In this document: one piece after another, positions 28,561 to 49,603 of the stretch
How positions within the stretch are numbered: the first letter of the stretch is position 1
How the letters are laid out: the number at the start of each line of letters is the position of its first letter
DNA from: Phycisphaerales bacterium Planc_01
GTDB lineage: Bacteria; Planctomycetota; Phycisphaerae; Sedimentisphaerales; Anaerobacaceae
DNA length: 64,000 bases
Direction of reading: 5' to 3'
NCBI GenBank assembly: GCA_001603075.1
Contig: LVBB01000148.1
Coordinates: 1 to 64,000 of the forward strand
The notes under the pieces: generated by a model
Database searches by the model: none
The model's input: the letters and a program-made list of their open reading frames with translations, nothing else
Told to the model about the DNA's origin: nothing
Made by a program: the position numbers and the translations under genes

Positions 28561-29994
28561 TCAGCGGGATTTGGCGACACGCTCGACCTGTTCGAGGTAC
28601 TTCTGGACGTCTTCCCGAGGTTTGATGTCCTGGGCCCGCCGCAGCAGAGGCAAGGCTTCGGTATACTTCCCCTGCTGCACCAGCAACTGGGCGTGGCGCA
28701 CTCTGGCGTCGGCCTCATGCTTCTCCAGGCTTTGGGCGCGCTCGTAGTAGAACGCCGCTTTCTCGAAATCGCCGGCGCGGGCGCAGTACTGCCCCAAGAG
28801 GATCAGCGCCTCGCCCTCCAGCGGATCGAGCGCCACGATCTCTTCGAGCACCCGGACCTCGTCCGGCCCGGAGCTTTCGGCGACGGCGATTCGGGCGCGG
28901 AGTTTGAGCAGGTCCTTGCGCTGCTCGGTGTCCAGATCGTTGCCCGGAAGGGTCTCAATGCGCTCGATAAGCTGCTTGGTTTCTTCGTGGGCCCCGCGCG
29001 CGGTCAGCACGCCGGCGGCGCGAATGGCGCGCTGGCTCGTCCGGCGCGGGTCCATCTCAAGGGCCCGCAGATACGAACCGACGGCGATCTCGAACAAGTC
29101 CTGGTTGACGTAGATGTCGCCGAGCATGGTGAGGCTGTCGGCCGTGGACTTGCCCATGTGGTCCACCAGTTCGTAGTTGACGGCGGCTTTGAGCGGCTCG
29201 TTGAGACCGATGTAGGCATTGGCCTGGAGCAGCCAGAGATCGGCTCGGGTCGGGTTCTCGGCAATCAGCGTCCGGCACAATGCTGCCGCGTCGGCGTAGC
29301 GCTGCTGCCGAAACAAACTGCGGGCCAGCCCCATCTTCCAGTCGAGCGTCGCCGGGTCGAGCAGAACGGCCACGCGGTACGCCGATTCGGCCGCCAGGTT
29401 GTTCTCGACCGAGGAATAGGCAAAGCCGAGCGGGCCATAGGTCAGAGCGTCGCCACCGCCCAGTTCGATCGTGCGTGTCAGCGCCGGGATCGCCTTGGCG
29501 AAGTCACCGTTTCGCACGTGGATCAGTCCGAGGTTCTTCCATGCCCGACGGAACTTCGGAAACTTCGCCACCGCGCGCCCGTAGGCTTCGGCGGCCGGTT
29601 CGAGCTGGTCCTTCTGGAAATAGATGTTGGCCAGCGTGAAGTCGAATACGGCACTGGAAGCGTCCTTGGTGTGTCTCTGGAGCAGCCGGGCCGCTTCGTC
29701 CAATGAGTTCGACGAGATCAGCTCGAGTACGGACAGCATCTTCTCGCGTTCGGCCTGCGTGACTCGCGGCTCGACTTCCGTCTCGGCCAGGTAGCTCTCG
29801 GCAAACTGTCTCTGGAAGGCCGCGCTGCGCCAGATCTCCAGTTCCACCTCGCTCAAATGGGTTTCGACAGCAGACGCCAACGCCGATTGCACCATCGCCG
29901 TGAGCGAAAGGCCGAGAACGACCGACCCGAGCAGACACAAGGCCCATGTCCCATGTCCTGTCTCGTATATCTTGTGCTCCGATTCCAGTCTCAT
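28561..29994 (-). CDS. Exported TPR protein of the TonB2-like operon
   Basis: Multiple TPR units; last gene of the TonB/ExbBD operon. Confidence 0.85.
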   Translation of the reverse strand: MRLESEHKIYETGHGTWALCLLGSVVLGLSLTAMVQSALASAVETHLSEVELEIWRSAAFQRQFAESYLAETEVEPRVTQAEREKMLSVLELISSNSLDEAARLLQRHTKDASSAVFDFTLANIYFQKDQLEPAAEAYGRAVAKFPKFRRAWKNLGLIHVRNGDFAKAIPALTRTIELGGGDALTYGPLGFAYSSVENNLAAESAYRVAVLLDPATLDWKMGLARSLFRQQRYADAAALCRTLIAENPTRADLWLLQANAYIGLNEPLKAAVNYELVDHMGKSTADSLTMLGDIYVNQDLFEIAVGSYLRALEMDPRRTSQRAIRAAGVLTARGAHEETKQLIERIETLPGNDLDTEQRKDLLKLRARIAVAESSGPDEVRVLEEIVALDPLEGEALILLGQYCARAGDFEKAAFYYERAQSLEKHEADARVRHAQLLVQQGKYTEALPLLRRAQDIKPREDVQKYLEQVERVAKSR

Positions 29995-29997
29995 CGC

Positions 29998-30684
29998 TTA
30001 TCCTTCCGGGAAAGTGATCGGCGCCATCATGCGGAAGCGGACCGGCTTGCCGCCCCGCTTGCCGGGTTCGAATTTCCATCGTGCCACCGCCGACAGGGCC
30101 GGGGCCTCGAAGAGCGGGTCCGTCGAGCTGCGAACCTTCGGTTCGACCACCCGGCCGTTTTCGTCGACGATGAAGATGATGTTCACCTTGGCCGGCGCCT
30201 TACGGCGGAGTTGGTGAGTCACCGCAGGAGCGGGCTGGTAGATGACCCTCGGCTTCTGGTCGAGATCGGCCATCGAGAAGACGGCGTCCAGATCTTCGCC
30301 ACTCTTGAGCCCGACGGTGTTCAATATCACGGCGAAGTCACCGCCCCCCGTCCAGTTGTCGCCGAACCCCGGATTGAGCGCCAGCTCAAGCTGGGATAGA
30401 TCCAGGGGCGGCGCCTCCTCGACAAACTGTGGCGGCGTCTCCTCGGGTTGCGGTTCAGGTTCCGGCTCCTCGTCTTGTGGCGGGGGCGGAGGCGGCGGTT
30501 CGGCATGGGCCAGGTCCACAGTCTGCAACGGCAGATCATCCGCCGGCGGCCTGCTGATCGTCTGCATCAATGGCAACACAATGAAGAAGGCGAACGTCAG
30601 CGTCACGGCCCCCAGGAGGACCAGCAGTCGATGGCCGGCTTCCCGGACGATGCCGAATCTCTGACAGGTTCGCGCCGTCCCCAT
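29998..30684 (-). CDS. TonB family energy transducer
   Basis: N-terminal TM, 'EPPPPPPPQDEEPEPEPQPEE' Pro/Glu linker, C-terminal 'KVNIIFIVDENGRVVEPKVRSSTDPLFEAPALSAVARWKFEPGKRGGKPV'; start at 30684, not the longer ORF start. Confidence 0.93.
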   Translation of the reverse strand: MGTARTCQRFGIVREAGHRLLVLLGAVTLTFAFFIVLPLMQTISRPPADDLPLQTVDLAHAEPPPPPPPQDEEPEPEPQPEETPPQFVEEAPPLDLSQLELALNPGFGDNWTGGGDFAVILNTVGLKSGEDLDAVFSMADLDQKPRVIYQPAPAVTHQLRRKAPAKVNIIFIVDENGRVVEPKVRSSTDPLFEAPALSAVARWKFEPGKRGGKPVRFRMMAPITFPEG

Positions 30685-30686
30685 GC

Positions 30687-31100
30687 TCAACTCTGCGGTT
30701 TGCGGGTCGCCAGGCTCACCTTGCTGGCGCCGCCCAGTTTGGCTTCGTCGATGACGCGAACCAGCAGGCCGGAATCCGCCGCCGCATCGACCTGAATGAT
30801 GACCGGCACGTCCTCCTTCTGCAGTGTCCGCTTGACCAGTTGGCGTACGCCCCCAAAGCCGATCTCGCGGCCACCGTAGATGACCTCCCCCTTCTCCGTC
30901 AGTGCCAGGAGGATGCTCGTCTTCTCCAACTGAACGGACGAGGCGGCCTGAGGTTTGTCCACCTCGACCCCCGTCTCCTCGACGAAGGTCGTCGTCACGA
31001 TGAAGAAGATCAGCAGGATGAACACGCAGTCGATCAGAGGGGAGATGTCCACCCCGACGTCGCTGCTGTCGTCGGCCGCCATTTCGCGAAAACGTCCCAT
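30687..31100 (-). CDS. ExbD/TolR family biopolymer transport protein
   Basis: 'VDISPLIDCVFILLIFFIVTTTFVEETGVEVDKPQA'. Confidence 0.95.
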   Translation of the reverse strand: MGRFREMAADDSSDVGVDISPLIDCVFILLIFFIVTTTFVEETGVEVDKPQAASSVQLEKTSILLALTEKGEVIYGGREIGFGGVRQLVKRTLQKEDVPVIIQVDAAADSGLLVRVIDEAKLGGASKVSLATRKPQS

Positions 31101-31174: not shown

Positions 31175-31930
31175 CTATGCCACCTTCCCATGTTTCTGCA
31201 GGATTCGCACCGGCTCGCGGAAGACCTTCTCTGACCGCTGCGGCGTTCGAAGCGGCACCGCCACTCTTCGCTGCGGCCGCACGGCGGGAACCGGCTTGAC
31301 CCTTTCCTTTTCCGTCCGGCTCAGCGTCTTGTGCTGCTTCTGCGTGCAGATCGCCTCCAGATGCGCCAGAAAAGTCCTGTAGCGTTCGAGCTGGCGCGAG
31401 AGGTGATACTGGAAGAATAGCCCCGGCAGCGCGATGATCAGACCCGTCTCCGTGGTCACGAGGGCTTCAGATATGCCCTCTGCGACAAGGCCCATGGTCT
31501 TCTCGCCGCCCGAGCCGGTCGCCAGGGCGCCGAACGTGGCCAGCATCCCGGTCACCGTGCCGAGCAGGCCCAGCAACGGCGCAGCGCTGACGCAGACCTT
31601 CATAACCTGAAGATCGCGCTCGAACGGGACGATCTCCGTACCGCGCAGCTCTTCAAAGAACACGCCCGTCTGCTCGATCGACCGGGCCCCACCGACAAAA
31701 TCCAGCAGCTTGCCGATCGGTCCGCGCCGCCGATCGGGATGATCGATCCAGTGGCGCCAGGTCTTCTCGGGCACCGAACGATGTCCCTTGGTGGCCAGCC
31801 GCACGAGCACGTGCATTCCCAGCGCAAACAGGACCAGCGCATTGATCGCCAGGGCGACCATGGCCCAGCCACCCGACAGCCAGATGCCCACGGCCTGTTC
31901 CCACAAAGTCCTAAGCTGTTCCATAGCCAT
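31175..31930 (-). CDS. MotA/TolQ/ExbB proton channel protein
   Basis: 'VSAAPLLGLLGTVTGMLATFGALATGSGGEKTMGLVAEGISEALVTTETGLIIALPGLFF'. Confidence 0.95.
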   Translation of the reverse strand: MAMEQLRTLWEQAVGIWLSGGWAMVALAINALVLFALGMHVLVRLATKGHRSVPEKTWRHWIDHPDRRRGPIGKLLDFVGGARSIEQTGVFFEELRGTEIVPFERDLQVMKVCVSAAPLLGLLGTVTGMLATFGALATGSGGEKTMGLVAEGISEALVTTETGLIIALPGLFFQYHLSRQLERYRTFLAHLEAICTQKQHKTLSRTEKERVKPVPAVRPQRRVAVPLRTPQRSEKVFREPVRILQKHGKVA

Positions 31931-31932
31931 AT

Positions 31933-33870
31933 CTACTCTCCATTGCGAATGACTCGTCCGACCAGTTGATCGTCGTCGTCAAGGACCGGCATGACACGGA
32001 CGTCATGGGTTCGAAAGAGGTGTTGCACTTCGTCGCGGTCGGTATCCGTGCGTACGAACAAGGTGTCCCGATCGATCAGGGATTCGATTCGCGCCTGCTC
32101 GGGCCGGGTCAACAGCAGGCGGACGTGAAGGTCTCCGACGTATCGGCCCTCTTCGTCCACCACGAAGACGGCGTGGAAATCCTCATCCGATCCGACCGCG
32201 CGCATCGCGTTGAGCGCCTCGGCGACAGTCATGCTCTGATGGATCGTCATCGACGCCGGCTCCATCATGCTGCCGGCCGAGCCGGGTGCATACGGCGCGA
32301 CCTCGCAGGTCTCGTCCAACACATGGGCCCGCCTCCTCAGACGTCGCAGAACTTCCTCCGCCACGGCGGCGGGCATCTCCGCGAGCGTGTTGGCGGCATC
32401 CTGCGGCTGATACGGGGTCTTGCCGACCTGGTTCATGAAGCGGATGGCCGCCTTCTCCATCTGCGCGATCATGCCGCGCGCCTTGCGAGAAAGGAACGCG
32501 TGCAGCAGCAGCGAAGGAATCGCCACGATCAGGCCAAACTCCGTCGTAATCAGGGCTTCGGAAATCCCGCCGGACAGTGTCTTGACGTCCCCCGAGCCGA
32601 ACACGGTGATCAGCTTGAACGTGTTGATAATCCCCGTAACCGTGCCCAGCAGACCCAACAGCGGCGCCGCCGCAGCGCTGATCGCGATAAACGGCAGAAA
32701 CCGCTGAAGCCTCAGCCTGGCGGTGAGAATCTTCTCGTACATCACCTCTTCGATCAGGGCCGGCGGTTCGCGGAGGTGCTCGACACCGGTCGCCAGCATC
32801 GCACCGGTCGGCCCACCGATGGCGGCGGCCTCGGCAGCGGCGACCTCCTTCTTGCGTTCGGAGATCGCTTCGAGCAACGCACGAATCCGTCGCTCCGACG
32901 GCTGACGCAAACGCGCCAGCTCGATCCATTTGAACAGGACCACCAGCATGGCAGCGCCGAAGAGCCCCAGGATCGGGTACATCACCACCCCACCCTTGCG
33001 GATATGCTCGATGAGTGTCTGCTTGGTCGCCTCGATCTTGTGGGCGTTGCCCAGCGTGGGGTCGAACGGGAACTCGCCGGCGCCGGTGGCAACGAGCGTG
33101 GCCGCCGCCTGGGTCATCGCCTCGGAGCCGAAGGGCAGGATCGTCGGTTCGAGAGAACCGAGGCGCTGCTCGGCGATCCCGACGGTTTCGCCGTCATCCG
33201 AGCGAAACAGGGCGACCGGCCCCAGCAGGACGAACGTGCCGCGCCGGACCCGGCCGGAGGAATCCACGGCGCTGCCGTCGAACCGGACTCCGCCCAGGGC
33301 CTCATGCAACCTTTCGAGCGACGCCGTCACGAGCGCGACCTGCGTCTGATACACCTCGGTCTCGCTCAGGTTGCTGTTCTCGGGCGCCAGTCTGGCCGCC
33401 TCGATCAGGTCGCTGTAGCGCTGAATCTCCGCGATATGCAGTCGCGTCTCGAAACTGCGGATGTATTCGCTGAGCAGATTGGAGATGTACGTCTTCTCCT
33501 CGCGGCGCGACTGGACTTCCGAGCGCAGGTTGCTCAGATCGAGCGTGCGGCTGTCGAGAAGGCGCATGGTCTGCTGGTACTCGCGACGCACTTCGAGCAG
33601 TTGCTCTTCGAGTTCGCTGAGCCGGCGGCCCATCGGCACCTTCTCCTCCGCAATCGCCTGTCGCAGCGCCGCCAGCTCGGCGAGGCTCTCTTCAAGCTGT
33701 CGCTGAGCGGAGACCCCGACGGCACTGAGGGTGTCGGCGGGCGGTGTGGCGTGCGATGCGGATGTACCGCCATCGGCACTTTCCTGCCCTCCGGCGATGC
33801 GAGTCGACACGGTCCCCAGCAGGACAGAAAGAATACAGATCAGCAGGTGTATGTTCCTACCGATGGACAT
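31933..33870 (-). CDS. TtpC-like MotA/TolQ/ExbB protein: signal peptide, coiled coil, ExbB domain, C-terminal CBS pair
   Basis: Coiled-coil N-terminus; 'APLLGLLGTVTGIINTFKLITVFGSGDVKTLSGGISEALITTEFGLIVAIPSLL'; then 'SMMEPASMTIHQSMTVAEALNAMRAVGSDEDFHAVFVVDEEGRYVGDLHVRLLLT...VRTDTDRDEVQHLFRTHDVRVMPVLDDDDQLVGRVIRNGE'. Confidence 0.9.
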   Translation of the reverse strand: MSIGRNIHLLICILSVLLGTVSTRIAGGQESADGGTSASHATPPADTLSAVGVSAQRQLEESLAELAALRQAIAEEKVPMGRRLSELEEQLLEVRREYQQTMRLLDSRTLDLSNLRSEVQSRREEKTYISNLLSEYIRSFETRLHIAEIQRYSDLIEAARLAPENSNLSETEVYQTQVALVTASLERLHEALGGVRFDGSAVDSSGRVRRGTFVLLGPVALFRSDDGETVGIAEQRLGSLEPTILPFGSEAMTQAAATLVATGAGEFPFDPTLGNAHKIEATKQTLIEHIRKGGVVMYPILGLFGAAMLVVLFKWIELARLRQPSERRIRALLEAISERKKEVAAAEAAAIGGPTGAMLATGVEHLREPPALIEEVMYEKILTARLRLQRFLPFIAISAAAAPLLGLLGTVTGIINTFKLITVFGSGDVKTLSGGISEALITTEFGLIVAIPSLLLHAFLSRKARGMIAQMEKAAIRFMNQVGKTPYQPQDAANTLAEMPAAVAEEVLRRLRRRAHVLDETCEVAPYAPGSAGSMMEPASMTIHQSMTVAEALNAMRAVGSDEDFHAVFVVDEEGRYVGDLHVRLLLTRPEQARIESLIDRDTLFVRTDTDRDEVQHLFRTHDVRVMPVLDDDDQLVGRVIRNGE

Positions 33871-34648
33871 TGGCCGTTCCTTGGTCTATGGTTGCCGGCA
33901 ACGGAACGAAGCCCGCGACCTTCTCGTTTTTCAGGATGGCGAGAACGTCCGCCACCTGCTCGGCTGCGCCGGCAGCCGGTTCCCAATGCCAGCCGTCAGC
34001 GGCAGGACGCCCGACGCCTGCTGCCGTCCCATTGGCGCCGCTGTAGTAAGCCTGTCCCAGACCCACGTACAGAGCCGCGACCTCGACGGCGCTGCCATCG
34101 GGCATCGTGCGGATCTCGCTGGTCACCTCGATGGCCCGGTTGAATTTGTTCACCTCGTTCAGAAGCCCAATGACGTTTTGGAACCGCTGGGCGAGGGACA
34201 GTTTCGTATCGTTCGGATCGGCCGGGATGCGCTGGCTGAGCGGTTTCATGCGTTCGCGAACCGGGTCCGGCAGGCGCCGGTCCAACACCATTGTTCGAGC
34301 TTCCAGCGCCGCCATCGTCTGGGTCAGTCCGGCGGCGGAAGCCCTCAACGTCTCATTCTCGTCCACCAGCTCGGCGCGCCTGGCGTCGGCCTCGCCGATA
34401 CTCTTCTGCGCCTCGTCGATCTTCTCGCGCAGCGACGCGATTTCTCGCTCGACGAGCTTGATGCGTTCTTCGAGCATTTCGCGGCCGAGTGTCCAGTCCT
34501 GCCGCTCTTTGGAGATCACGCGGCGCGTCTCGACCCATCGCTCCGTCAAGGCGCGGATGTTGTCGATCCGATCGGATTCGACAGCCCCGGCCAGGGAGGC
34601 GAAGATCAGCAATGCCAGGCTCGTCCATCGACACGTTCGTCCGATCAC
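33857..34648 (-). CDS. DUF3450 family protein of the TonB2-like operon
   Basis: GTG start at 34648 preceded by gaaagg; coiled coil 'RWVETRRVISKERQDWTLGREMLEERIKLVEREIASLREKI'; position in operon. Confidence 0.8.
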   Translation of the reverse strand: MIGRTCRWTSLALLIFASLAGAVESDRIDNIRALTERWVETRRVISKERQDWTLGREMLEERIKLVEREIASLREKIDEAQKSIGEADARRAELVDENETLRASAAGLTQTMAALEARTMVLDRRLPDPVRERMKPLSQRIPADPNDTKLSLAQRFQNVIGLLNEVNKFNRAIEVTSEIRTMPDGSAVEVAALYVGLGQAYYSGANGTAAGVGRPAADGWHWEPAAGAAEQVADVLAILKNEKVAGFVPLPATIDQGTANVHR

Positions 34649-34768
34649 AGTCAACCTTTCACCCTGCGACTGGTCCATCCATGCAACCCGTGGACGGTAT
34701 CCGCGAGCCACAGTCACCCGGGTGGGCATACAACGGTGGCTCGGCTGTCTGTATCTTCGCCGGGCCAC

Positions 34769-34849: not shown

Positions 34850-36070
34850 TCACCACGGATCGCCCAAGCCCGCCTGGATTTCGCGAATCCGGCTCGCCAG
34901 CACGGCGTCCGGCTCCATGGCGTGCAATGCCAGCGAACAACAGGTGGCCACCAGATCCTCGGCCCGGGGTCTCGAATTGGGGTTCTCCATTCCCGCTTCA
35001 ACCGCCCGCTTGTAGAGATCGAACGCAGCGGCCGTATCGCCCATTGCACAATAGGCCTCGGCGATCGGGCGAAGCGCCCGGGCCCGATAGATGTTGGCAA
35101 TCGTATCGCGCTTCGCGTCGAACAGAGCCAGAGCCCGCTCGGCCTCAGCCCGAGCGCCTGCCTCGTCGCCGGCCCGGAAACGCAATCGGGTCAATTGTGC
35201 CATCAGCGGAATGGCGGACTCGGGTTGCATACGGGCCGCATCCATCAGGTCCTTGGCTTCGTTTAGGAGTGCTAGCGCCTTGGCCGAATCGGCGTGTGCC
35301 AGAGAAGCGTTCGCCAGTTCCATCAGCAGTTCGATGCGAACGAAGACGGGCAGGTTGCCCCAGGACGCTTTGATCTTGTCCTCGGCCCGCGCACGGCAAT
35401 CGGGGTCGTCGTAAAAGCGGTTGAACAACTCGGCGCACGCGTCCAGAGCGTTTCGGACGATATCGAATCTCTGGGTGGCGAACAGTGCGGCCAGAGCCTC
35501 CATCTGCTCGTCGAAGGAATCCGGCGTTGCGATCCTCGCCCTGATCCGAGCGACCTTGCCTCTCTCGGCGGGCTCGACGCCCTGCTCGAACCGGGTCGCC
35601 ATTTCCGCCCGTCCCATGAGGGCATGGACCTGCGCGATCTTGACTCGGATTCGTTCCTTGCGCCAATCCTCCTCGCTGTCGGCCACGTCTGCGGCCCTGT
35701 CCAGAAGAGACTGTACTTCTGTGTCGGCTCGGCGCCGTGCATGGAACAATGCCAGGTCCGCGTAGGCCGCGCCGCGCCGCCAGTCACGGATCTGGGCGGC
35801 GTAGAGAAGCGCCCGCTCGGGTTGCTCCAGTGCCAGGCAGGTCGCTACAACTGCTTCCTGGAGCCGGCTGCGGTCCTTGATGTGTGGGTCCAAGGGCATT
35901 GCCGAGGCGGCCGCGAATGCGGTCTCCAGCAGGCCTACCTGATAGGGGGCCAATAAGGTGTCCCCATCGGTCCCAACTGCCTCCACCTCCTCCGCCCGAC
36001 CGCAGCCAACGGCAAGAACGAGGCAACCCACGCTCAGCAACGAACACGTCAGGACCAGTCGCACTCTCAT
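34850..36070 (-). CDS. TPR-like lipoprotein
   Basis: Lipobox-like 'CLVLAVGC'; helical repeats through 406 aa. Confidence 0.7.
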   Translation of the reverse strand: MRVRLVLTCSLLSVGCLVLAVGCGRAEEVEAVGTDGDTLLAPYQVGLLETAFAAASAMPLDPHIKDRSRLQEAVVATCLALEQPERALLYAAQIRDWRRGAAYADLALFHARRRADTEVQSLLDRAADVADSEEDWRKERIRVKIAQVHALMGRAEMATRFEQGVEPAERGKVARIRARIATPDSFDEQMEALAALFATQRFDIVRNALDACAELFNRFYDDPDCRARAEDKIKASWGNLPVFVRIELLMELANASLAHADSAKALALLNEAKDLMDAARMQPESAIPLMAQLTRLRFRAGDEAGARAEAERALALFDAKRDTIANIYRARALRPIAEAYCAMGDTAAAFDLYKRAVEAGMENPNSRPRAEDLVATCCSLALHAMEPDAVLASRIREIQAGLGDPW

Positions 36071-36188: not shown

Positions 36189-37640
36189 TTAGTCGGTCAT
36201 GCCGAACGCATGAGCGGCCGTCCAGCCGACCAGCCAGTTGTGGTCAAGGAAGGCGCCCTTGTATGGCGCCGGCGTGATGAACCCGCAATCGCGGACGTGG
36301 TCGCTGTGGCGGGCATCGTTGGCGGCGCGGGGGTTCAGATAGGTCACATTGGCCATGGCCTTGCCGGCAACGACCACGGGGGTCTCGCGGACGATCTCCT
36401 GAATCGGGCTGTCTTCCGCGATGACGTTGCCCTTGCTCTCGTCCATGACACCGAACTGAACCAGCGAATCGGTCTCAAACAGGTTGTAGAACACATTGTT
36501 GGTGAAGTCACACCAGTTGCCCGACGTGAGGTCTGGGTAGAGCACCATGGGATTGATATTGGCGGTATTGGTCGGATAAGCATTGTACGGCGTGCTGAAC
36601 AGTTCCGCCAGCGTGGGAACGCCGGCCGAGCCGTAGCCGCCGCCGTCGCCGGCGGTGCCGTCATCGCGAATCATCCGCTCACCGACGTCCATGAAGATGC
36701 AGTTGTGGAACTGGGCCCGCATGTTGTCGCGCCAGGCGGTGGCATGGTCGCCGTCATAGGGCTGCCCGATCGCCGTGAAGTTGTAGAACAGCGCGGTGCC
36801 GAACGGCTGAGCCGACGCATCCTCGGCGCCGTCCATCTCGAAAATGTTGTCGCCGATGCCCGAGCCCTGGCTGTTCGAACCACAGTAGCCCTGGACGAGC
36901 AGGCCGAACTGGGCCTTGCCGCGCCAACCCTGGTCCACGTCGAAGCTGTCGTCACCGATGTTCCAGATGCTGACGTACTTCATGTTAACGGTGCCGCCCC
37001 AGATCTCGATTCCATCGTCGACGTTGTTCATGATCTCGATGTATTCCATGTCGGTGCCGCGTCCGACGCCGCCAAGGGACATGCCGTTCAGCTCGTTGGC
37101 CATACTGACGACATGGCCGCCGTAGCGCAGGGAGACGTAGCGAACGACGCCGCTGTCGTCGTCATCATCGTTGCCGCCGTAGAGCGGAAGCATGTCACCG
37201 GCGAACCGGGCGACGAGGCCTTCCATCTGAGCGGTGTCCGTGCCATCCGGCTGGCCCGTGCCGTCGCCGTCCATCGTTGCGGCGATCAAGCCGTTGCCCA
37301 GGATCGTCAGGTTGCCCCACTCTTCAGACACCGCACGCCAGGTCGTCAGGTCGTCCTGCACCGACGTCATGATGATCGGGGCGTCCTTGCGGCCGTTGGC
37401 GAAGATCTTGGCACCCTTGGCCACGACCAGTGCGCTGGCGGTGTTGCCGCGAATCAGGGTGCCGGGCTCGATCGTCAGGCTTGCGCCGGGCTCGACGTAG
37501 ATGACGTTCTGGAGATAGTACACGTTGTCGGCGGTCCATGTTGTGGACGTGACGATGTTCTCCGTCACGTCAATGTCGGCCGCACCGGCTGTGCCGGCGG
37601 CCACCATGCCCATCAGGGCAAGCAATGCGAGTCTCTTCAT
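36189..37640 (-). CDS. Exported right-handed beta-helix-like protein
   Basis: MKRLALLALMGMVAAGTAGA signal; 'VEPGASLTIEPGTLIRGNTASALVVAKGAKIFANGRKDAPIIMTS'; start taken at 37640. Confidence 0.75.
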   Translation of the reverse strand: MKRLALLALMGMVAAGTAGAADIDVTENIVTSTTWTADNVYYLQNVIYVEPGASLTIEPGTLIRGNTASALVVAKGAKIFANGRKDAPIIMTSVQDDLTTWRAVSEEWGNLTILGNGLIAATMDGDGTGQPDGTDTAQMEGLVARFAGDMLPLYGGNDDDDDSGVVRYVSLRYGGHVVSMANELNGMSLGGVGRGTDMEYIEIMNNVDDGIEIWGGTVNMKYVSIWNIGDDSFDVDQGWRGKAQFGLLVQGYCGSNSQGSGIGDNIFEMDGAEDASAQPFGTALFYNFTAIGQPYDGDHATAWRDNMRAQFHNCIFMDVGERMIRDDGTAGDGGGYGSAGVPTLAELFSTPYNAYPTNTANINPMVLYPDLTSGNWCDFTNNVFYNLFETDSLVQFGVMDESKGNVIAEDSPIQEIVRETPVVVAGKAMANVTYLNPRAANDARHSDHVRDCGFITPAPYKGAFLDHNWLVGWTAAHAFGMTD

Positions 37641-37924
37641 GGTTGTTCTCCATACTGGTTGCACTTCGTCTGTTTGCGCTGCCTGCGCAGCATCCGTCGG
37701 CCATCTGGAGGAAGTCCGAGTCACGCCTCCTCCGCACTGCTTCTGTCCGAGCCATCGGTTCCGGAGGCCGATCGCTCACGCCGGGAGATGCCCGGCACAC
37801 TATGCCAACTCGCGAGTACGCGACAAAGCAGATCGCCAGGAGGCGCGCTATCCCTTGAACTCAATCACATCGTCGCGTGACCATTTTGACCCTGGCGATC
37901 CGGGGCTCATTGTGGTCGCGCCAC

Positions 37925-38121: not shown

Positions 38122-38219
38122 AAATTGCCCAGCCTGACATCTATCCTATACAGACATCCTTTGGCAGACTTGAAACGATGAGCTTTTGAGACAACAGTCG
38201 CTTGAATTGCAGGTGGTCC

Positions 38220-41126
38220 ATGCCGACAGAACCGCTTCTGAGACCCTTTTACTTGTATGCTTTAGGGTTACTCTGCCTGGTGTCCGCCGTCTCGGCCCAA
38301 CAGGTCGGCGGGGTCCGTGGCGTGGTCTACGACCAGGATTTCGACGTGCCGCTGCCCCTGGTCCGGGTATGGATCAATGAGACCGGCGAGACGACGACCA
38401 CCAACGACGAGGGGGTCTTCGTCTTCGGACAGGTGGCTCCGGGCACCTACACCCTGGTCTTCTCGAAGGACGGCTATACCCGTCAGTTCACCCCCAATGT
38501 GGTCGTCTCGGCCGGAGGAATGACCGAAGTAAATGCCTCTCTGGCCGGCGAATTCACGGAGATGGAGGAGTTCGTAGTGCAGGATCTCGAACTGGGCGGC
38601 TCGGAGATCGGCCTTCTGAACCTGCGGATGGAGAGCCCTTCGTTTCTGGACGCGATCAGTTCGGACCTGATGAGCCAGGCCGGTGCCAGCGACGCCGCCG
38701 GTGCCTTGCGGCTGGTGGCCGGCGCCACGGTGGAAGACGGCAAATACGCCGTGGTGCGCGGCCTGCCGGACCGGTATGTCAATTCGCAGTTGAATGCGGT
38801 ACGCCTGCCCACCGCCGACGTGGACAAACGAGCGGTGCAGCTCGACCAGTTCCCCGCCGCCCTGGTCGAGAGCATCCAGGTCAGCAAGACATTCACACCC
38901 GACCAGCAAGGCGATGCGTCCGGCGGAGCGGTGAATCTCGTGCTCAAGGGAATCCCCGATGAACGCGTGCTCACCGCCAAGATCGGAACCGAGTACAACA
39001 CGCAACTGCGATACCGCGACGACTTCCTCACCTACCGTGGAGGCGGAGTGGATTTCTGGGGCATCGACAGCGGCAGGGACATCCCACGCAACAACCAGTT
39101 CGGCGGGGTCATGGGGACCACGCCCGACGACGCCCCTCTGATCTACAGCGGCTCCTTCACCGCCGGAGGCAAACACGAACTCGACAACGGCGTTCGCATC
39201 GGGGCGTTCGGCAGTATGTACTACAAGCACGACGCCTCTTACTACGATGGCGGAACGTTTCACATCTATGAGGCCCGCCTGGCCAATGGCCGCTATGCGA
39301 TGAGGCCCTTCGAGCAATACGGATTTACAACCCTCTACGATGTGACCAAGGCAGTGGAAGCAGTTCAATGGGGGGCCCTGGGAGCCGTCGGCGCCGAATG
39401 GGACAATCACGCCCTCTCGCTACTCTATATGCGGACGCAGATCACGGAGGACGAGGCCACCCTTCTCGAGGACACCCGTGGAAGTCTGTATCGCGATGAA
39501 CTGGATATCGACGCACCGTTCCACCGCAACGAGACGCTGGAGTACACCGAGCGATCCCAATCCACACTCCAACTGAAGGGACGACACGGCCTGAGCATTC
39601 CGGAGTATTCGCTGGGCAAAGTCGCACACACTCTCGACCCGGAACTCGACTGGACGCTCTCGCACAATGAAGCCCGCATGGACCAGCCCGACAAGAGGAC
39701 GTTCCGCACGTGGTGGAGCCCCGGACGCGTCGTCATCCCCGACATATTGGAGTTCCCTGCCGCCCACTACGGACACGATCCCAGCGGAAGCGGCAACGAG
39801 TTCGCCCAGCGGATCTGGAAGGACATCACCGAGAAGAGCGACCAGGCCGCCGTCAACGGCAAGCTGCCGTTCGAACAGTGGAGCGGCCGGGAAGGCTATC
39901 TGAAAGTCGGCGCATTCCACGACCGCACCGACCGCAAGTACAACCAGGACGGCTTCTTCTATCAGTTTGACGGGACCTCCTATCAGGCCCCGTGGGAGCA
40001 GAATTGGGGCAACGTCTATGTCGGCGAAGGACATACGATCGTCGCCTCCGACCAGGATGTGGACTACAGCGGCGATCAGAAGATCACGGCGTGGTACTAT
40101 ATGATCGATCTGCCGTTGACCGGCTTTCTGAAGGTGGTCGGGGGCGCTCGCCATGAATCGACGGACCTGAAGATCGTCAACCATCCTGAAAGCGAGAACG
40201 CCCAGTACCTGCCTCCCGGAGGCACCGGCTGGACGCGGTTCGGGCCGGAGGCAGACGTATCCTACTCCCAGGACGATGTTCTGCCGTCGATCGGGATCGA
40301 AGTGACACCGAGGGAGAAGGTCAAGCTCCGAGCCTCGTACAGCGAGACCGTGGCGCGCCAGACGTTCAAGGAGCTTTCGCCGGTGATGCAGATGGAGTAT
40401 CTCGGCGCCGACATCTTCGTCGGAAACCCGGAGCTGACGATGAGCGCGCTGAGGAACTACGACCTGCGGGTCGATTACGAGCCGTATCCCGGATCCCTTC
40501 TCTCGGCCTCCTGGTTCCACAAGGACGTAGACGACCCGATCGAGTACGTGCAACGCTTCCAGGCGTCGCTGTTCTACACGACCGCCGTCAATTACCCGGA
40601 AGGCTGGCTCGAAGGGTACGAGTTGGAGGTCCGCCAGGACCTGGGGAGGTTCTGGGAACAGTTCCGTGGCTTCACGCTCGGGGCCAACGCTACCTTCATC
40701 GACTCCGAGGTCACCCTGCCGGATGGAGAGGCCCAGGCCTTCGCCGCGGTCGGCGCCCCGAGAAGGCGTCGCGACATGACGAACACGCCCGAGTTTCTTT
40801 ACAATCTGAATCTGACGTACCACAGCGAGAAATATGGAACGCGACTCGGCCTCTTCTACACCGTTCGCGGCGACACCCTGGTCGAAGGCGGCGTGGCCCT
40901 GGGCCGGGGCTACGTTCCCGACGTCTATGAGAAGGAATATGGCTCGCTGAACCTCGGCGTCGTGCAGCCGATCGGTGAACAAACAAAGCTCTCGCTCCAG
41001 ATCAAGAACCTGACCGATCCCAAGATCGAGAGGGTCTATCGTTCCGACTACATCGACCGCGAGGCGACCAAGACGTCCTACAGGAGAGGCATCGACGTCG
41101 TCCTGAGCATGGAACACGAATTCTGA
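38220..41126 (+). CDS. TonB-dependent receptor with N-terminal carboxypeptidase-regulatory-like domain
   Basis: 'GGVRGVVYDQDFDVPLPLVRVWINETGETTTTNDEGVFVFGQVAPGTYTLVFSKDGY', plug 'SQAGASDAAGALRLVAGATVEDGKYAVVRGLPDRYVNSQLN', beta-barrel, terminal F. Confidence 0.95.
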   Translation: MPTEPLLRPFYLYALGLLCLVSAVSAQQVGGVRGVVYDQDFDVPLPLVRVWINETGETTTTNDEGVFVFGQVAPGTYTLVFSKDGYTRQFTPNVVVSAGGMTEVNASLAGEFTEMEEFVVQDLELGGSEIGLLNLRMESPSFLDAISSDLMSQAGASDAAGALRLVAGATVEDGKYAVVRGLPDRYVNSQLNAVRLPTADVDKRAVQLDQFPAALVESIQVSKTFTPDQQGDASGGAVNLVLKGIPDERVLTAKIGTEYNTQLRYRDDFLTYRGGGVDFWGIDSGRDIPRNNQFGGVMGTTPDDAPLIYSGSFTAGGKHELDNGVRIGAFGSMYYKHDASYYDGGTFHIYEARLANGRYAMRPFEQYGFTTLYDVTKAVEAVQWGALGAVGAEWDNHALSLLYMRTQITEDEATLLEDTRGSLYRDELDIDAPFHRNETLEYTERSQSTLQLKGRHGLSIPEYSLGKVAHTLDPELDWTLSHNEARMDQPDKRTFRTWWSPGRVVIPDILEFPAAHYGHDPSGSGNEFAQRIWKDITEKSDQAAVNGKLPFEQWSGREGYLKVGAFHDRTDRKYNQDGFFYQFDGTSYQAPWEQNWGNVYVGEGHTIVASDQDVDYSGDQKITAWYYMIDLPLTGFLKVVGGARHESTDLKIVNHPESENAQYLPPGGTGWTRFGPEADVSYSQDDVLPSIGIEVTPREKVKLRASYSETVARQTFKELSPVMQMEYLGADIFVGNPELTMSALRNYDLRVDYEPYPGSLLSASWFHKDVDDPIEYVQRFQASLFYTTAVNYPEGWLEGYELEVRQDLGRFWEQFRGFTLGANATFIDSEVTLPDGEAQAFAAVGAPRRRRDMTNTPEFLYNLNLTYHSEKYGTRLGLFYTVRGDTLVEGGVALGRGYVPDVYEKEYGSLNLGVVQPIGEQTKLSLQIKNLTDPKIERVYRSDYIDREATKTSYRRGIDVVLSMEHEF

Positions 41127-41888: not shown

Positions 41889-42665
41889 CTACGACGGGCT
41901 GTCCTTGAAGCGGTAGCCGACGCCCCGGACGGTCTCGATGTAGTCCTTGCAGTCGCCGAGCTTCTTGCGGAGGTAGGCGATCTGGACGTCCACCGCCCGC
42001 TCGCTGACGATGTAGTTGCCCCCGTGCAGAGAATCGACGATCTGGTATCGCGTGAACACCACGCCCGGCCGGCGCGCCAGGACGCGAAGGATGTTGAACT
42101 CCGAGAAGGTCAGCGAAAGGGCCGTGCCCTTGAGCAGCGCCTCACATCGGACCGGATCGATACTCAGATCGTGAATCCGTATGACGCCCTCATCCGAATC
42201 CTGATCGGCCGTCTTGCGCAGCACGCGACGCACGCGCGCCACCAGCACCTTGGAGCTGAACGGTTTGGTGATGTAGTCGTCGGCCCCCAGTTCCAGCCCT
42301 GTGACGACGTCACTCTCCTCGCTTTTGGCGGTGAGCATGATGATCGGCATGTTCCGCGTCTTGGCATTGGCCTTGAGGATCTGACAGACCTGCAGCCCGT
42401 CGATTCCCGGCAGCATCAGGTCCAGGATCGTCAACGCAGGCTGTTTGGCCTGCGCCACCTCCAAGGCCTCTTCGCCCGAGCCGGCAGTGCAGACATCGTA
42501 GCCCTCCCGGACAAGATGGAGTTCCACCAGTTCCTGTATGTCCTCTTCGTCATCGACGACAAGAATCGTTCCTTTTCCCATTGCGTGCCCTGCGAACAAA
42601 TCATCATGGCCATTGCCCTGGCGCTGTGCAGACATATTCCTCTCATCAGAAGACATCGTTTCCAT
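41889..42665 (-). CDS. PhoB/OmpR-family response regulator
   Basis: Receiver 'ILVVDDEEDIQELVELHL...LTILDLMLPGIDGLQVC...PIIMLTAKSEESDVVTGLELGADDYITKPFSSK' plus winged helix 'RAVDVQIAYLRKKLGDCKDYIETVRGVGYRF'. Confidence 0.95.
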   Translation of the reverse strand: METMSSDERNMSAQRQGNGHDDLFAGHAMGKGTILVVDDEEDIQELVELHLVREGYDVCTAGSGEEALEVAQAKQPALTILDLMLPGIDGLQVCQILKANAKTRNMPIIMLTAKSEESDVVTGLELGADDYITKPFSSKVLVARVRRVLRKTADQDSDEGVIRIHDLSIDPVRCEALLKGTALSLTFSEFNILRVLARRPGVVFTRYQIVDSLHGGNYIVSERAVDVQIAYLRKKLGDCKDYIETVRGVGYRFKDSPS

Positions 42666-42718
42666 TAGAGCAGCGCTTGGATCTCTTTAGTTTTTCGTTA
42701 GCGGTGGATTCTTGCCGA
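42664..42718. promoter_or_regulatory. 11-bp-phased array overlapping the phoB-like start: ATTAGAGCAGC GCTTGGATCTC TTTAGTTTTTC GTTAGCGGTGG ATTCTTGCCGA
   Basis: RTTAG-like units in one 11-bp register, abutting the phoB-like ATG. Confidence 0.5.
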
Positions 42719-42752
42719 CCCGCTCGCGGCGGCTCGGCGTAACCGAGGCGGT

Positions 42753-42796
42753 CTCCGGAAAATGCAAATCTAACCTTTCTCCAATTCCGGCCTAAC
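42753..42796. promoter_or_regulatory. 11-bp-phased array read on the minus strand: GTTAGGCCGGA ATTGGAGAAAG GTTAGATTTGC ATTTTCCGGAG
   Basis: 26 bp upstream of the MFS transporter start (42822). Confidence 0.55.
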
Positions 42797-42821
42797 ACAC
42801 GGCGGCTAATGTCGCCGGTCT

Positions 42822-44144
42822 ATGACCGTGGAAGCACCACCAATCCGCCGTGTGGGTTCCGACCCACCGCAGGTCGGCCGCAAAGCAGCGACATCCCCTT
42901 CGGCCACACTGAGGCTCTGGCAGATGCGGGCCTTCTTCAGCATGGCCGTGCTCTATCTGTTCTATTACTTCGGCAAGAAGAACATCGGCGTTGCCGCCGG
43001 AGCGATCGAGCAGAGTCTCGGCCTGTCCCACCGCCAGTTCGGCTGGGTCCTGACGGCGTTCACCCTGACCTATGCGTTGGGCCAGTTCCTCAACGGCTTT
43101 CTGGGCGATCGCTACAGTCCCAAACGCATCATGCTCATCGGCGCTCTCGGAGGCGTCGCAGCCAACGTCCTCTTCGGCTTGAGCCACACACTGATTCTCT
43201 TCGTCGTATTCTGGGCCATCAACGGCTATTTCTCCTCCATGGGCTGGGCGCCCGGATGCCGGATCCTGTGCAACTGGTTCCCCGAGCGACGCTGGGGCTG
43301 GTGGATGGGCCTGTACAACTTCTTCCCTTACTTCGGCGGCGCGCTCGTGGCGCCGGTCGCGGCATACTCCATCGAACGCTGGGGCGGGTGGCAAGGGGCC
43401 TTCTTCCTTCCCCCGCTTTTCCTGGCGGGCATGGCGGCCCTGTTCGCCGTTTTGTGCAAGGACTCCCCGCAGCAGGTCGCAATTGCTCCACCCTGGAACC
43501 CTCCCGGTGGCCAGACGCATTCGCCCGCCGACGCCCAGGCGTACTGGCACGCATTCAGCCATCGGCGAATGATGGTGCCGTACATCGTCGCTTTCGGGGC
43601 CAACGCCATCCGCTGGGGACTGCTGCACTGGATCATCCTGATCCTGCAAACACCTGCCGTCGAGGGCGGCTTCGGCCTGGCGCTGACCAGGGCCGGCTGG
43701 ATCGGTTCGTTGGTCGACTGGGGCGGGATGTTCTTCGCGGTAAGCCTCGGCGTGCTGTCCGATCGCCTCTTCAGGGCCCGCCGCTGGCAGACGATCGCCC
43801 TGAGTATGGTCGCCGCCGGGGGGGCGCTGTTTGTTCTGTCCCGAAGCGCCGCTCTGTTGGATTCGCCCGTCGGCACGTTCGTCCTTTGTGCCTCCGTCTT
43901 CGCCTCCGGCGGACTGATTCAGGGGATCCACACGCCCCTGTTCTGTCTGCCGGGCGACATTCTGGGCCAGCGTCTGTCGGGCACCGGCGCCGGGATCATG
44001 GACGGATGGATGTACATCGGGGCCGCGCTGGCCGGCTATCCCCTGGGTTGGTGGCTGGATACACACGGCCTGGCGTCGGGCATCGCGCTGCTCGGGACCG
44101 TGAGCATCGTCTTCGGACTTATCGCCATCGCCATCCGACGATAG
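42822..44144 (+). CDS. MFS transporter, organophosphate:phosphate antiporter (OPA/GlpT-UhpT)-like
   Basis: ~12 TM; '[19 protein letters not shown]', '[39 protein letters not shown]'; upstream of phnWX. Confidence 0.85.
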
Positions 44145-44232
44145 ACTCTCGTCCGTCGCGGTGTGTTCCGGAATTGTTGTCACATATGCGTTCTGTAATG
44201 AACACCAGATTTGGCAAGGAGAAAGCAACCGT

Positions 44233-45390
44233 ATGAAATCAACGACACCGCTGTCCGGCTGGAAAGACCGGATCCTCTTCACGCCGGGGCCGCTGACGAC
44301 CAGTCGCCCGGTCAAACAGGCCATGCTGCGCGATCTGGGCTCGCGCGATCACGAGTTCATCGCGGTCGTGCACGATGTTCGCCGACGGCTGGTCGCGCTC
44401 GGCCAGACGACGCTGAAGCAGTACACCGCCATCCCGATGCAGGGTAGCGGGACCTTCGCACTGGAGGCGGTCGTCTCCTCCGTCGTCCCGCCCGATGGAA
44501 GGTTGATGGTCGTCCTCAACGGCGCGTACGGACGGCGCATCGCGCGAATCGCTTCTGTCCTCGGCATCGAGACGATCACCGTCGAGTTTCCGGAAAACCG
44601 CTGTGTGGACGTCGAAGAGGTACAACAACAACTGGACGCACACGGCGACGTCGCGATGGTGGCCGTCGTACACTGCGAGACCACCACGGGCATCGTCAAC
44701 CCGATCGAACCGATCGGGGCGGCGGCAAAGACCGCCGGCGCGAAGTACTTCGTCGACGCAATGAGCAGCTTCGGCGCCATTCCAATCTCACTGCCCGGCT
44801 GCCACATCGACTATCTCGTCTCCTCTGCGAACAAGTGCATCGAGGGGGTGCCCGGCTTCGCCTTCGTCCTGGCGAGGCTCGGCTCGTTGAAGGATACGAA
44901 GGGCTATGCCCGCAGCCTCAGCCTGGACCTGTACGATCAATGGGCGGGTCTCGAGAAGAACGGCCAGTTCCGATTCACGCCGCCGACCCACGCGATCCTC
45001 GCCTTTCACCAGGCCTTGCTGGAGTTGGAGGCCGAGGGCGGAGTCGCCGGCCGGGCCGCACGCTATCGAGCCAACTACGAAACCCTCGTTGCCGGCATGC
45101 GCCATATGGGCTTCACAGAGTATCTGGCGCCTCAGGACCAGGGTTACATCATCACATCGTTTCGTTATCCCGACGATCCGGCGTTCGATTTCGAGCGATT
45201 CTACGATGCCCTGAACGCGCGAGGTTACGTCATCTACCCGGGCAAAGTCAGTGATGCCGATTGCTTCCGCATCGGGAACATCGGTCGGATCTTCGAGTCG
45301 GACGTGAGGGACCTGCTGGGCGCCGTCGAGGACGTCGTTCAGGAATGCGGCATCAAACTGAAACCCCAGGAAGCAGGAGCAAGCCACTGA
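44233..45390 (+). CDS. phnW: 2-aminoethylphosphonate-pyruvate transaminase
   Basis: '[29 protein letters not shown]', PLP-Lys region '[16 protein letters not shown]'; overlaps phnX (TGATG). Confidence 0.96.
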
Positions 45391-46208
45391 TGGATATGAA
45401 TCGCAGCGGATACAGCGGGCCCGTGAAGGCGGTCATCAGCGACCTGGCCGGGACGACGGTGGATTTCGGCAGTTGCGCCCCGGCCGGCGCCTTCGTGGAG
45501 CTCTTTGGACGCGACGGAATCGAAGCCACCACCGCCGATGCCCGCGGCCCGATGGGCATCCACAAGAAGGACCACATCCAAGCCATGCTGCAGTTGCCTC
45601 ACATCGCCGAGCAGTGGCGTCGCATACACGGCCATGACTGGACCGGCGATGACCTGGAGGCGCTGTATCAGAAGTTCATCCCCATGCAACTGGAGGCGCT
45701 GCCCAAATACGGGGACGTCATTCCCGGCGTGGTGCAAGCCGTGGAGCAGTTGCGACGTCGAGACATTCCCGTCGCCGTCAACACCGGCTACAACCGAGAG
45801 ATGTTGGACATCGTGCTCCGCAAGGCGGCCGAGGGAAACTTCGTGCCGGATGCGGCGTTGTGTGCATTCGATGTGCCGAAAGGCCGCCCGGCGCCGTGGA
45901 TGGTCTTTCGGCTCATGGAGACGCTCGACGTTTATCCCCCGGCGGCCGTCGTCAAGGTCGGCGATACGATCGCCGATATCGAAGAGGGCCTCAACGCGGG
46001 CGTCTGGACGGTGGGCGTCACGCAGACCGGCAATCTGATCGGATTGACGCAAGCAGAACTGGAAGCATTGGATCGAAGCGAACTGGAGAAGCGGACTCAG
46101 GCGGCAGAGCGAACATTCATGGAAGCCGGGGCGCACTACGTGATCGAATCGTTCGCCGATATGCCCACTGTTGTAGAGCAGATCGAATCACGGCTCCATC
46201 ACGCTTGA
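45390..46208 (+). CDS. phnX: Phosphonoacetaldehyde hydrolase
   Basis: 'VISDLAGTTVDFGSCAPAGAFVELFGRDGIEATTADARGPMGIHKKDHIQAM' including the Schiff-base Lys region; 'VKVGDTIADIEEGLNAGVWTVGV'. Confidence 0.96.
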   Translation: MDMNRSGYSGPVKAVISDLAGTTVDFGSCAPAGAFVELFGRDGIEATTADARGPMGIHKKDHIQAMLQLPHIAEQWRRIHGHDWTGDDLEALYQKFIPMQLEALPKYGDVIPGVVQAVEQLRRRDIPVAVNTGYNREMLDIVLRKAAEGNFVPDAALCAFDVPKGRPAPWMVFRLMETLDVYPPAAVVKVGDTIADIEEGLNAGVWTVGVTQTGNLIGLTQAELEALDRSELEKRTQAAERTFMEAGAHYVIESFADMPTVVEQIESRLHHA

Positions 46209-46950: not shown

Positions 46951-48375
46951 ATGACTGACATGAGAAAGAATCAAATGGTCCCCGCGGACTCACCGAGGCA
47001 AGCAGCCTTGTCATTCGACCGGGGCACGCTGCTGCTGGCGGGCCTGGAACGCACGGAGTCCCCCACCATTGCCGATCCTTCCATCTGGGCGTGGGACCCC
47101 CGCGTCGGGGCCTGGCGCTGTGACGCGATTCATTATTCCAGCGTCCGAGCCGCAGGAGGCTGTCGCGATGATGTGCCGCAACCCGTCTCCGTCCCCTGGC
47201 CAAGAACGGAGTTGCCCGAACTCAGGCCGGAGCAGGTGGAGGCCCTTGCCGCCTGGTGCAGGCTTTCCCGGCGAGGTCAGATCATCATGCCCACCGGGAC
47301 CGGCAAGACGGAAGTGGCCTTTGCCGCGATGGCCGAGGCCAAGGTGGCGACGCTGGTTGTCGCGCCGGTGCGCGATTTGATGTATCAGTGGCACAGGCGG
47401 ATACTGAAGACATTTGGCTACGATGCAGGGATCGTCGGTGACAACCTCTTCGACATCCGGCCGGTGACCGTAACGACGTATGACAGCGCCTACATTCACA
47501 TGGACAAGATGGGAGCCGGATTCGGCCTGTTGATCTTCGACGAGGAGCATCACCTGCCGGGCAAGTGCCGGCGTGAGGCGGCGGTCCTCAGCACCGCCCC
47601 CCTGCGGCTCGGACTGACGGCAACACCGGAACGGTCCGACGGCCTGCACGCCGACCTGGACTGGCTCATCGGCCCCGTTGCGTACCGCATGCCCTTCCAC
47701 AAAGCGAAGGGGTCTACTCTTGCCGATTTTGACATCGTGCGTATCCCGGTTGCGCTGAACGACGACGAGCAGGCAATCTACGACCATTGCAGCCGAACGG
47801 TGCGCCAGTTCATCGCATCGCGTCGCAAAGACCAGCCGAGCTATACGTGGCAGGACCTCTGCAAAGAGTCGGGCACGGACCCCGAGGCCCGTCACGCACA
47901 GAAGAGCTACTATCGCAAACAGTCCATCGAGGACCGGGCCGCCGAGAAGCTTCGCGTGCTCGAGGACATCTTTCGCCTGCACAACGGCCAGCAGGTCCTG
48001 GTGTTCGCAGGCTCCAACGCCATGGCGATCGAGGTCTCCAGGCGGTTCCTGCTGCCGACGATCCTGTCGCACACACGAAAACGTGAGCGGCTGGCCGTTC
48101 TGGAAGGGTTCGCCAAGGGCCTCTTCAGCGTCCTCATCGCCAACCGGGTCCTCGACGAAGGGGTGGATGTGCCGGAGGCGAAGGTGGCGGTGGTGATCGG
48201 CGGCCAGGGTTCGACACGGCAGGCCACCCAGAGACTGGGCCGCGTCCTGCGAAGATCGGGCAATTCCAGGGCCACCCTGTACGAGGTCGTTTGCGAGGAT
48301 ACCAAGGAGGTCGAGCGTTCCCGAAAGAGACGCCGCAGCGATGCTTACGAGCGAACTGTCCATCGTCGAGTATGA
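46951..48375 (+). CDS. XPB-like superfamily 2 DNA helicase
   Basis: 'LRPEQVEALAAWCRLSRRGQIIMPTGTGKTEVAFAAM', 'LLIFDEEHHLPG', 'RLGLTATPERSDG', 'RVLDEGVDVPEAKVAVVIGGQGSTRQATQRLGRVLRR'; paired with a Bax1-like gene. Confidence 0.85.
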   Translation: MTDMRKNQMVPADSPRQAALSFDRGTLLLAGLERTESPTIADPSIWAWDPRVGAWRCDAIHYSSVRAAGGCRDDVPQPVSVPWPRTELPELRPEQVEALAAWCRLSRRGQIIMPTGTGKTEVAFAAMAEAKVATLVVAPVRDLMYQWHRRILKTFGYDAGIVGDNLFDIRPVTVTTYDSAYIHMDKMGAGFGLLIFDEEHHLPGKCRREAAVLSTAPLRLGLTATPERSDGLHADLDWLIGPVAYRMPFHKAKGSTLADFDIVRIPVALNDDEQAIYDHCSRTVRQFIASRRKDQPSYTWQDLCKESGTDPEARHAQKSYYRKQSIEDRAAEKLRVLEDIFRLHNGQQVLVFAGSNAMAIEVSRRFLLPTILSHTRKRERLAVLEGFAKGLFSVLIANRVLDEGVDVPEAKVAVVIGGQGSTRQATQRLGRVLRRSGNSRATLYEVVCEDTKEVERSRKRRRSDAYERTVHRRV

Positions 48376-49603
48376 GGCGGGCCGGGCCATTCCCGACCGC
48401 CTGACACAGACCCGGCATCGGCACTATGTGGACTATGCCGAGCGGATGCTGGCCGTCTATCGCACCGGCCTCGGCCGCCAGCGTCGATGGCTGCACCAGC
48501 AGATCGAGGCGATCTTCGCCGATGAACCCAACTGCCCCGTTCGGCGAATCCAGGCGTTCTGCAAGCTGCTCGATGACAAGTCCACTTTCCGGACCGATCC
48601 GACCGGCACAGCCGCCAAACTGCGGTTGGACGTGTTCTCACAGGTTGCGTGTTTCCATCCGCTGGTTCAGCAGTCGGACCAGCTCTTCGAGCATGAGGAA
48701 GGCAAAGCGAAGACCGCTCTTGCGGAGAGCTTGGGCATGCCGTGGGACGAGATAGACCGTGCGCTGTATGCCGATGTCATGGCGTACCAGCCTCTGGAGG
48801 AGTTTGCCGGCTATCCCGACCCGGCCGCCCTCCTGTCGCGCTACAACGTGGCCCAGCTTCAGGCGTGCCTCTACCGGGCCGAGAGCATGACCGTTGTGGC
48901 CACCAGTGACCTGAAGACCATCGTCCGATACGCCAAACTGGCGCGGCTGCTGCACGAAATCGTAAGGCTTGGTCCTTCGCATTTTCGTTTGACCTTCTCG
49001 GGGCCCGCCTCGGTGCTGCGGGAGACACGCCGCTATGGTGTGAACTTCGCAAGGTTCCTGCCGGCCTTGCTCGTCTGCGAAGGCTGGAGCATGACGGCCG
49101 TCGTGCGAACCCCCTGGAACACCCGCGCCACACTCGCGATCTCGGATCGAGACCGCTTCACCAGCCATTTGCCTGCGCCGCAGGAATTCGACTCGGCCCT
49201 GGAAGAGTCCTTCGCCGGGAAGTTCGGGCCAAAACGCGATGGCTGGGAGTTGATTCGGGAAGGCGAGATCCTGCACGATCGCCAGAAGACCTTCCTTCCG
49301 GATTTCACGTTTCGCCATGACGATGGCACGGAGGTGTTTCTGGAGATCGTCGGCTTCTGGACGCCGGAATATCTGGCCAGCAAACGCGAAACCCTCGGGC
49401 AGTTTCGGCATCACAACATCCTGATCGCCGTGCCGGAAGCGTCCGTCCGGGAAGGGGCACGCCTCTTGGAGAACGTACTGGTCTACAAGACGGCTCTGAA
49501 ACTCGCGCCATTGATGGAACTGCTGGAAACAACCCGAGCGAAACGCGCCACAGTCAGCCGCCAAGGTGAGCGCATCACCCCGGACCAAAGCGACAGACCG
49601 TGA
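48341..49603 (+). CDS. Bax1-like nuclease (DUF790 family)
   Basis: 'LDVFSQVACFHPLVQQSDQLFEHEEGKAKTALAESLGM', 'RYNVAQLQACLYRAESMTVV', 'FLPDFTFRHDDGTEVFLEIVGFWTPEYLASKRETL'; 35-bp overlap with the XPB-like ORF. Confidence 0.85.
   Translation: MLTSELSIVEYEAGRAIPDRLTQTRHRHYVDYAERMLAVYRTGLGRQRRWLHQQIEAIFADEPNCPVRRIQAFCKLLDDKSTFRTDPTGTAAKLRLDVFSQVACFHPLVQQSDQLFEHEEGKAKTALAESLGMPWDEIDRALYADVMAYQPLEEFAGYPDPAALLSRYNVAQLQACLYRAESMTVVATSDLKTIVRYAKLARLLHEIVRLGPSHFRLTFSGPASVLRETRRYGVNFARFLPALLVCEGWSMTAVVRTPWNTRATLAISDRDRFTSHLPAPQEFDSALEESFAGKFGPKRDGWELIREGEILHDRQKTFLPDFTFRHDDGTEVFLEIVGFWTPEYLASKRETLGQFRHHNILIAVPEASVREGARLLENVLVYKTALKLAPLMELLETTRAKRATVSRQGERITPDQSDRP

Follow-up and report, generated by a model that had tools for sequence, protein, structure and literature searches.

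Can a motor that powers nutrient uptake across the outer membrane be governed from the cytosol? The question is raised by a locus in a window of 64,000 nucleotides (the whole stretch of DNA analysed here, from contig LVBB01000148.1 of the planctomycete Phycisphaerales bacterium Planc_01), in which TtpC, a subunit of such a proton-driven motor, carries as its tail a sensor-like module from a magnesium channel. The proton-motor fold is common to TonB, Tol and flagellar stators, and we know of no TonB energiser with demonstrated gating from the cytosolic side. A naturally occurring fusion to a sensor-type domain, single in origin and maintained by purifying selection, gives direct access to the question whether such motors can be throttled, and by what means. 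An original prediction, made from the sequence alone, proposed a TtpC-like ExbB protein ending in a pair of MgtE-like CBS motifs, with proton flow for TonB energisation perhaps gated by a ligand. The locus holds a real, lineage-specific domain fusion in a system of familiar type. The identity of the fusion, a TtpC/ExbB-family protein with an MgtE-derived CBS tail, is secure, as is its origin, and a regulatory role for the tail, with a ligand other than in MgtE, is possible.

The reading frame was found on the minus strand together with both peptides quoted in the prediction. The features of the gene and its protein are as follows:

31933..33870, minus strand: ttpC-like gene, ATG at 33870 and stop at 31933-31935, 645 aa
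aa 9-27: N-terminus of the ttpC-like protein, signal peptide/transmembrane segment (TM)
aa ~50-250: periplasmic part, coiled coil and small beta domain
aa 295-313, 391-409 and 439-457: the three TMs of the MotA/TolQ/ExbB core
32455..32808, minus strand: MotA_ExbB domain, aa 355-472 (Pfam)
31936..32412, minus strand: MgtE-derived tail, aa 487-645, about 40 aa of the MgtE N-domain end plus the CBS pair
32119..32274, minus strand: CBS motif 1, aa 533-584 (Pfam and AlphaFold)
31948..32097, minus strand: CBS motif 2, aa ~592-641 (Pfam and AlphaFold)

Profile searches with Pfam recover MotA_ExbB and CBS in one protein, both above cut-off: MotA_ExbB scores 101.7 bits against a cut-off of 22.9, and CBS matches in two stretches, the best (aa 533-584) at 44.4 bits against 24. 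With the NCBIfam mgtE model, aa 488-641 score 72.5 bits, short of the cut-off set for whole proteins, as a fragment should be; only model positions 91-243 are covered and, because the match starts at aa 488, the fused piece begins about 40 aa ahead of CBS motif 1. The MgtE transmembrane channel domain found no match in the protein with either Pfam or NCBIfam. Among PDB sequences, the tail best matches cytosolic domains of MgtE (2yvy, E 1.8e-19), and the core matches ExbB/TolQ. On alignment to 5sv0, the channel residues T148, E176 and T181 of E. coli ExbB correspond to T410, E438 and T443, invariant across 41 homologues. The three-TM core with its conserved Thr/Glu/Thr is thus common to E. coli ExbB/TolQ and the ttpC-like protein, but the latter adds a large periplasmic coiled coil and a cytosolic CBS tail, and works beside a separate ExbB2.

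In an AlphaFold single-chain model (41 sequences; mean pLDDT 82.6), the CBS region mostly reaches pLDDT ~80-95 with strands and helices in the expected order, and the top Foldseek matches of the model are MgtE (2yvy, 1.2e-10) and ExbB/TolQ (5zfp, 3.0e-7). Pfam, AlphaFold and Foldseek agree on a CBS pair, two motifs above cut-off with a beta-alpha-beta-beta-alpha fold, closest to the cytosolic domain of MgtE; a different fold for the tail is ruled out by the AlphaFold models and Foldseek matches. An assembly join or chance artefact is also ruled out, as the same fusion is seen in 15 separate genomes or contigs. The TM3 helix of the model runs on unbroken to aa 484, where the tail follows; since homology to ExbB has TM3 entering the cytosol, the tail is, by that analogy, cytosolic and at the base of the stator. 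In MgtE (2yvy, 2zy9, 5x9g), the end of the N-domain and the CBS pair are homologous to the tail in sequence and fold, but the cytosolic domain stands ahead of the TMs, whereas here the tail is placed after them, has neither the plug helix nor most of the N-domain, and has largely lost the Mg2+ and ATP residues.

The setting of the gene comprises:

33857..34768, minus strand: ttpB-like gene (DUF3450, 103 bits; Pfam)
31175..31930, minus strand: exbB2-like gene, beginning 2 bases past the ttpC stop
30687..31100, minus strand: exbD (Pfam)
29998..30675, minus strand: tonB, start approximate (Pfam TonB_C)
28561..29994, minus strand: ttpD-like TPR protein
34850..36070, minus strand: TPR-like protein of the conserved cluster
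36189..37724, minus strand: secreted protein of no family, conserved with the cluster
38202..41126, plus strand: TonB-dependent receptor with a carboxypeptidase-regulatory-like N-terminal domain, the cluster's partner receptor

The minus-strand order is TPR, ttpB (DUF3450), ttpC, exbB2, exbD, tonB and ttpD (TPR), and contains a complete operon of TonB2 type (ttpB/DUF3450-ttpC-exbB2-exbD-tonB-ttpD). The Vibrio TonB2 system is a six-gene operon to which TtpB, TtpC and TtpD belong (PMC6957404). Vibrio TonB2/TonB3 and the present operon have in common the order ttpB(DUF3450)-ttpC-exbB2-exbD2-tonB2-ttpD(TPR) and a second ExbB-family protein beside ExbB2, and in Vibrio TonB3 a receptor gene adjoins the operon, as here (PMC6957404). 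The passages drawn on here mention no CBS tail on Vibrio TtpC, compared here by description only, whereas one is present in our protein (PMC6957404). The profile score and the Foldseek matches to ExbB and TolQ place the protein in the MotA/TolQ/ExbB proton-channel family, and the operon setting bears out the TtpC-like assignment; the predicted CBS pair has likewise held up, and literature text searches turned up no characterised ExbB or TtpC described with CBS domains, in line with what the prediction had supposed.

The whole genome contains one detectable TonB (the sole TonB_C match) and one ExbD, together with two receptor plug domains; with one TonB and one ExbD detected, any control would affect all its TonB-driven uptake. 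The gene set of the cluster is kept at loci in Planctomycetota, Verrucomicrobiota, Kiritimatiellota and Sumerlaeota. The secreted protein at 36189-37724, which lacks a Pfam or NCBIfam family and lies beside the receptor in most loci across several phyla, is probably beta-helical, judging from its sequence. In a Sumerlaeota TtpC homologue (L051 6420-8300), the ExbB region carries an insertion of ~80 aa at window aa 351-354. An Rfam search of the window found no known RNAs, Mg2+ riboswitches included.

The tail is narrowly distributed. Orthologues (E<=1e-90) occur in 20 of 161 genomes of the order that holds the window, very probably Sedimentisphaerales, with the tail present in 14 and absent in six; a fifteenth tail belongs to L046, a metagenome-assembled genome labelled Omnitrophota. 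None of the orthologues outside the order, in class and phylum samples, aligned into the CBS region, which for this sample rules out a widespread architecture. The tailed TtpC of L046 (6845-8806) has a degraded second CBS, and represents either a transfer or a mislabelled bin. L040 lacks CBS but retains an apparent stub of the N-domain piece, and genome G125 has two ttpC copies (L069, L071), one aligning to window aa 532 with a stub-like end and the other tailless. From the most diverged tails, those of the L009 group, the N-domain piece is gone; these tails still model as a CBS pair, with Foldseek matches to MgtE and other CBS structures, the OpuCA CBS 5iip among them.

In a tree of tails and MgtE, all 15 tails group as a single clade (support 100/99, recovered in 100% of bootstrap trees), which sits with the order's own MgtE and not with that of Thermus. 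Most tails end around RNGNG or RNGE at the position of the MgtE plug helix, the window copy at RNGE. As judged from these sequence comparisons, the fusion donor is shown to be a fragment of the order's own MgtE and the tail to be of single origin, a likeness to MgtE stronger than the prediction had claimed. In the ExbB-core tree, the tailed proteins are not monophyletic (6 changes; a single clade is rejected with p-AU 0.0007), and some long branches and low backbone support leave the number of losses unfixed. The simplest reading would be that the fusion arose once and was then lost several times, horizontal exchange perhaps also playing a part. Among close pairs, dN/dS is 0.10-0.15 for the tail (diverged family included) and 0.04-0.10 for the core, values that place the tail under purifying selection, though evolving faster than the core.

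Whether the tail could work as it does in MgtE depends on residues described in Thermus. Its MgtE has cytosolic Mg2+ sites at D91/D247 (Mg4), D226/D250 (Mg5), D95 (Mg6) and E59 (Mg7), mutation of any of Mg2-Mg7 blocking closure (PMC5882242), and ATP residues at Y170, R187, D188, N203, V207 and F227 (PMC5529423). One rival reading is that cytosolic Mg2+ (with ATP) binds the tail and closes or opens the TtpC proton path, as in MgtE; the derivation of the tail from MgtE speaks for such a gate, as does an acidic patch left in the window copy (D609, D611, D613, D623). Against it, the plug helix with D247 and D250 is absent from all tails, as is the E59 segment; the window protein has Q and N in place of D91 and D95; and D226 is kept in 7/15 tails, D214 in 5/15 and E216 in 1/15, the positions of all three being kept in nearly all of 17 local MgtE copies. 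The six ATP positions read A, R, L, D, L and V in the window protein, so that R187 alone is kept; it is also the sole common ATP residue among the tails (9/15), the position of F227, which is required for ATP, being V, L, I or D (PMC5882242, PMC5529423). D188 and F227 are missing from local MgtE also, and both losses therefore predate the fusion. The tail thus lacks the complete Mg2+-sensor set (E59, D91, D95, D226, D247/D250), and the window tail the complete ATP set. Because these residues are largely lost, MgtE-style gating of TtpC by Mg2+/ATP appears unlikely from sequence, and we regard such a gate as improbable; the ligand-gated proton flow of the original prediction accordingly finds no backing in the MgtE residues.

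On balance we favour, with moderate confidence, the explanation that ttpC belongs to a TonB2-type energiser serving the neighbouring outer-membrane receptor, and that early in the order its 3' end became joined, in a single event, to part of a local mgtE. TtpC would thereby have gained a CBS pair at the stator base, right after the long C-terminal helix from TM3, and the tail, on the cytosolic side, would serve the TtpC/ExbB2 stator as a regulatory or assembly module, perhaps through a bound small ligand or through self-association, without duplicating the Mg2+ gate of MgtE. The further step, a motor for outer-membrane import with a proton channel that a CBS-bound small molecule switches from within the cell, amounting to direct allosteric control of TonB energisation and possibly reporting energy or phosphorus state, is put forward tentatively. 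The main rival, somewhat unlikely in our estimate, is a structural role without a regulatory ligand, the CBS pair serving protein-protein interaction or dimerisation and thereby stabilising or clustering TtpC/ExbB2 stators. Even the most diverged tails retain the fold, whereas residues of known ligand sites vary, and the columns conserved among tails are mostly fold-core positions; faster tail evolution and varying ligand-site positions fit a mainly structural role equally well, and so count against the favoured explanation. A purely structural tail is less easily squared with E596, R607 and H622, which the tails conserve better than local MgtE does, or with the common binding of nucleotides by CBS pairs. 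Two further points weigh on the favoured regulatory or assembly module: several orthologues of the same order do without a tail, and, since CBS pairs (Bateman modules) usually dimerise and ExbB is a pentamer (6ye4, a Foldseek match), a mismatch would be expected by analogy unless some further arrangement exists. The tailless lineages, together with the L040 stub and the degraded second CBS of L046, could instead mark a neutral leftover of a chance fusion that is being lost, and rejection of one tailed clade in the core tree would be expected under repeated loss or transfer; with tail dN/dS at ~0.10-0.15 in close pairs, the diverged family too, and an open frame retained in 15 genomes, such a passenger is very improbable, and in the window lineage already disfavoured.

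Ligand-gated transporters with CBS domains, of known ligand and gating, include OpuCA/OpuA and ClC. They resemble the present protein in bearing a C-terminal cytosolic CBS pair on a membrane transport machine, but are transporters, whereas CBS-tailed TtpC belongs to a stator motor.

The speculative proposal that the tail ligand reports energy or phosphorus state arises because the operon adjoins Pho-type genes in several genomes. In the window (41889-46208), a PhoB-like regulator, an organophosphate (OPA)-type MFS transporter, PhnW and PhnX lie beside the cluster, and likewise in G005. Ppx, polyphosphate kinases, PhoB and alkaline phosphatase lie upstream in G023, an alkaline phosphatase near ttpD in G119, and PhoB directly after ttpD in L036 (12074-12859). 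Phosphorus genes also occur near the TonB cluster at L103, L105 (1323-10082) and L111 (6850-9733), and those of loci other than the window include alkaline phosphatase with YibE/F. No phosphorus genes were found at the cluster in G040 and most other loci, a search for a Pho box near the cluster found none, its single match being at chance level, and a literature search on Pho-linked TonB operons of planctomycetes found nothing relevant. Import of a phosphorus compound by the cluster is thus a hint, to be taken as a lead and not a result. Further along the window (46951-49603), an XPB-like helicase gene adjoins a Bax1-like nuclease gene, a pair familiar mainly from archaea.
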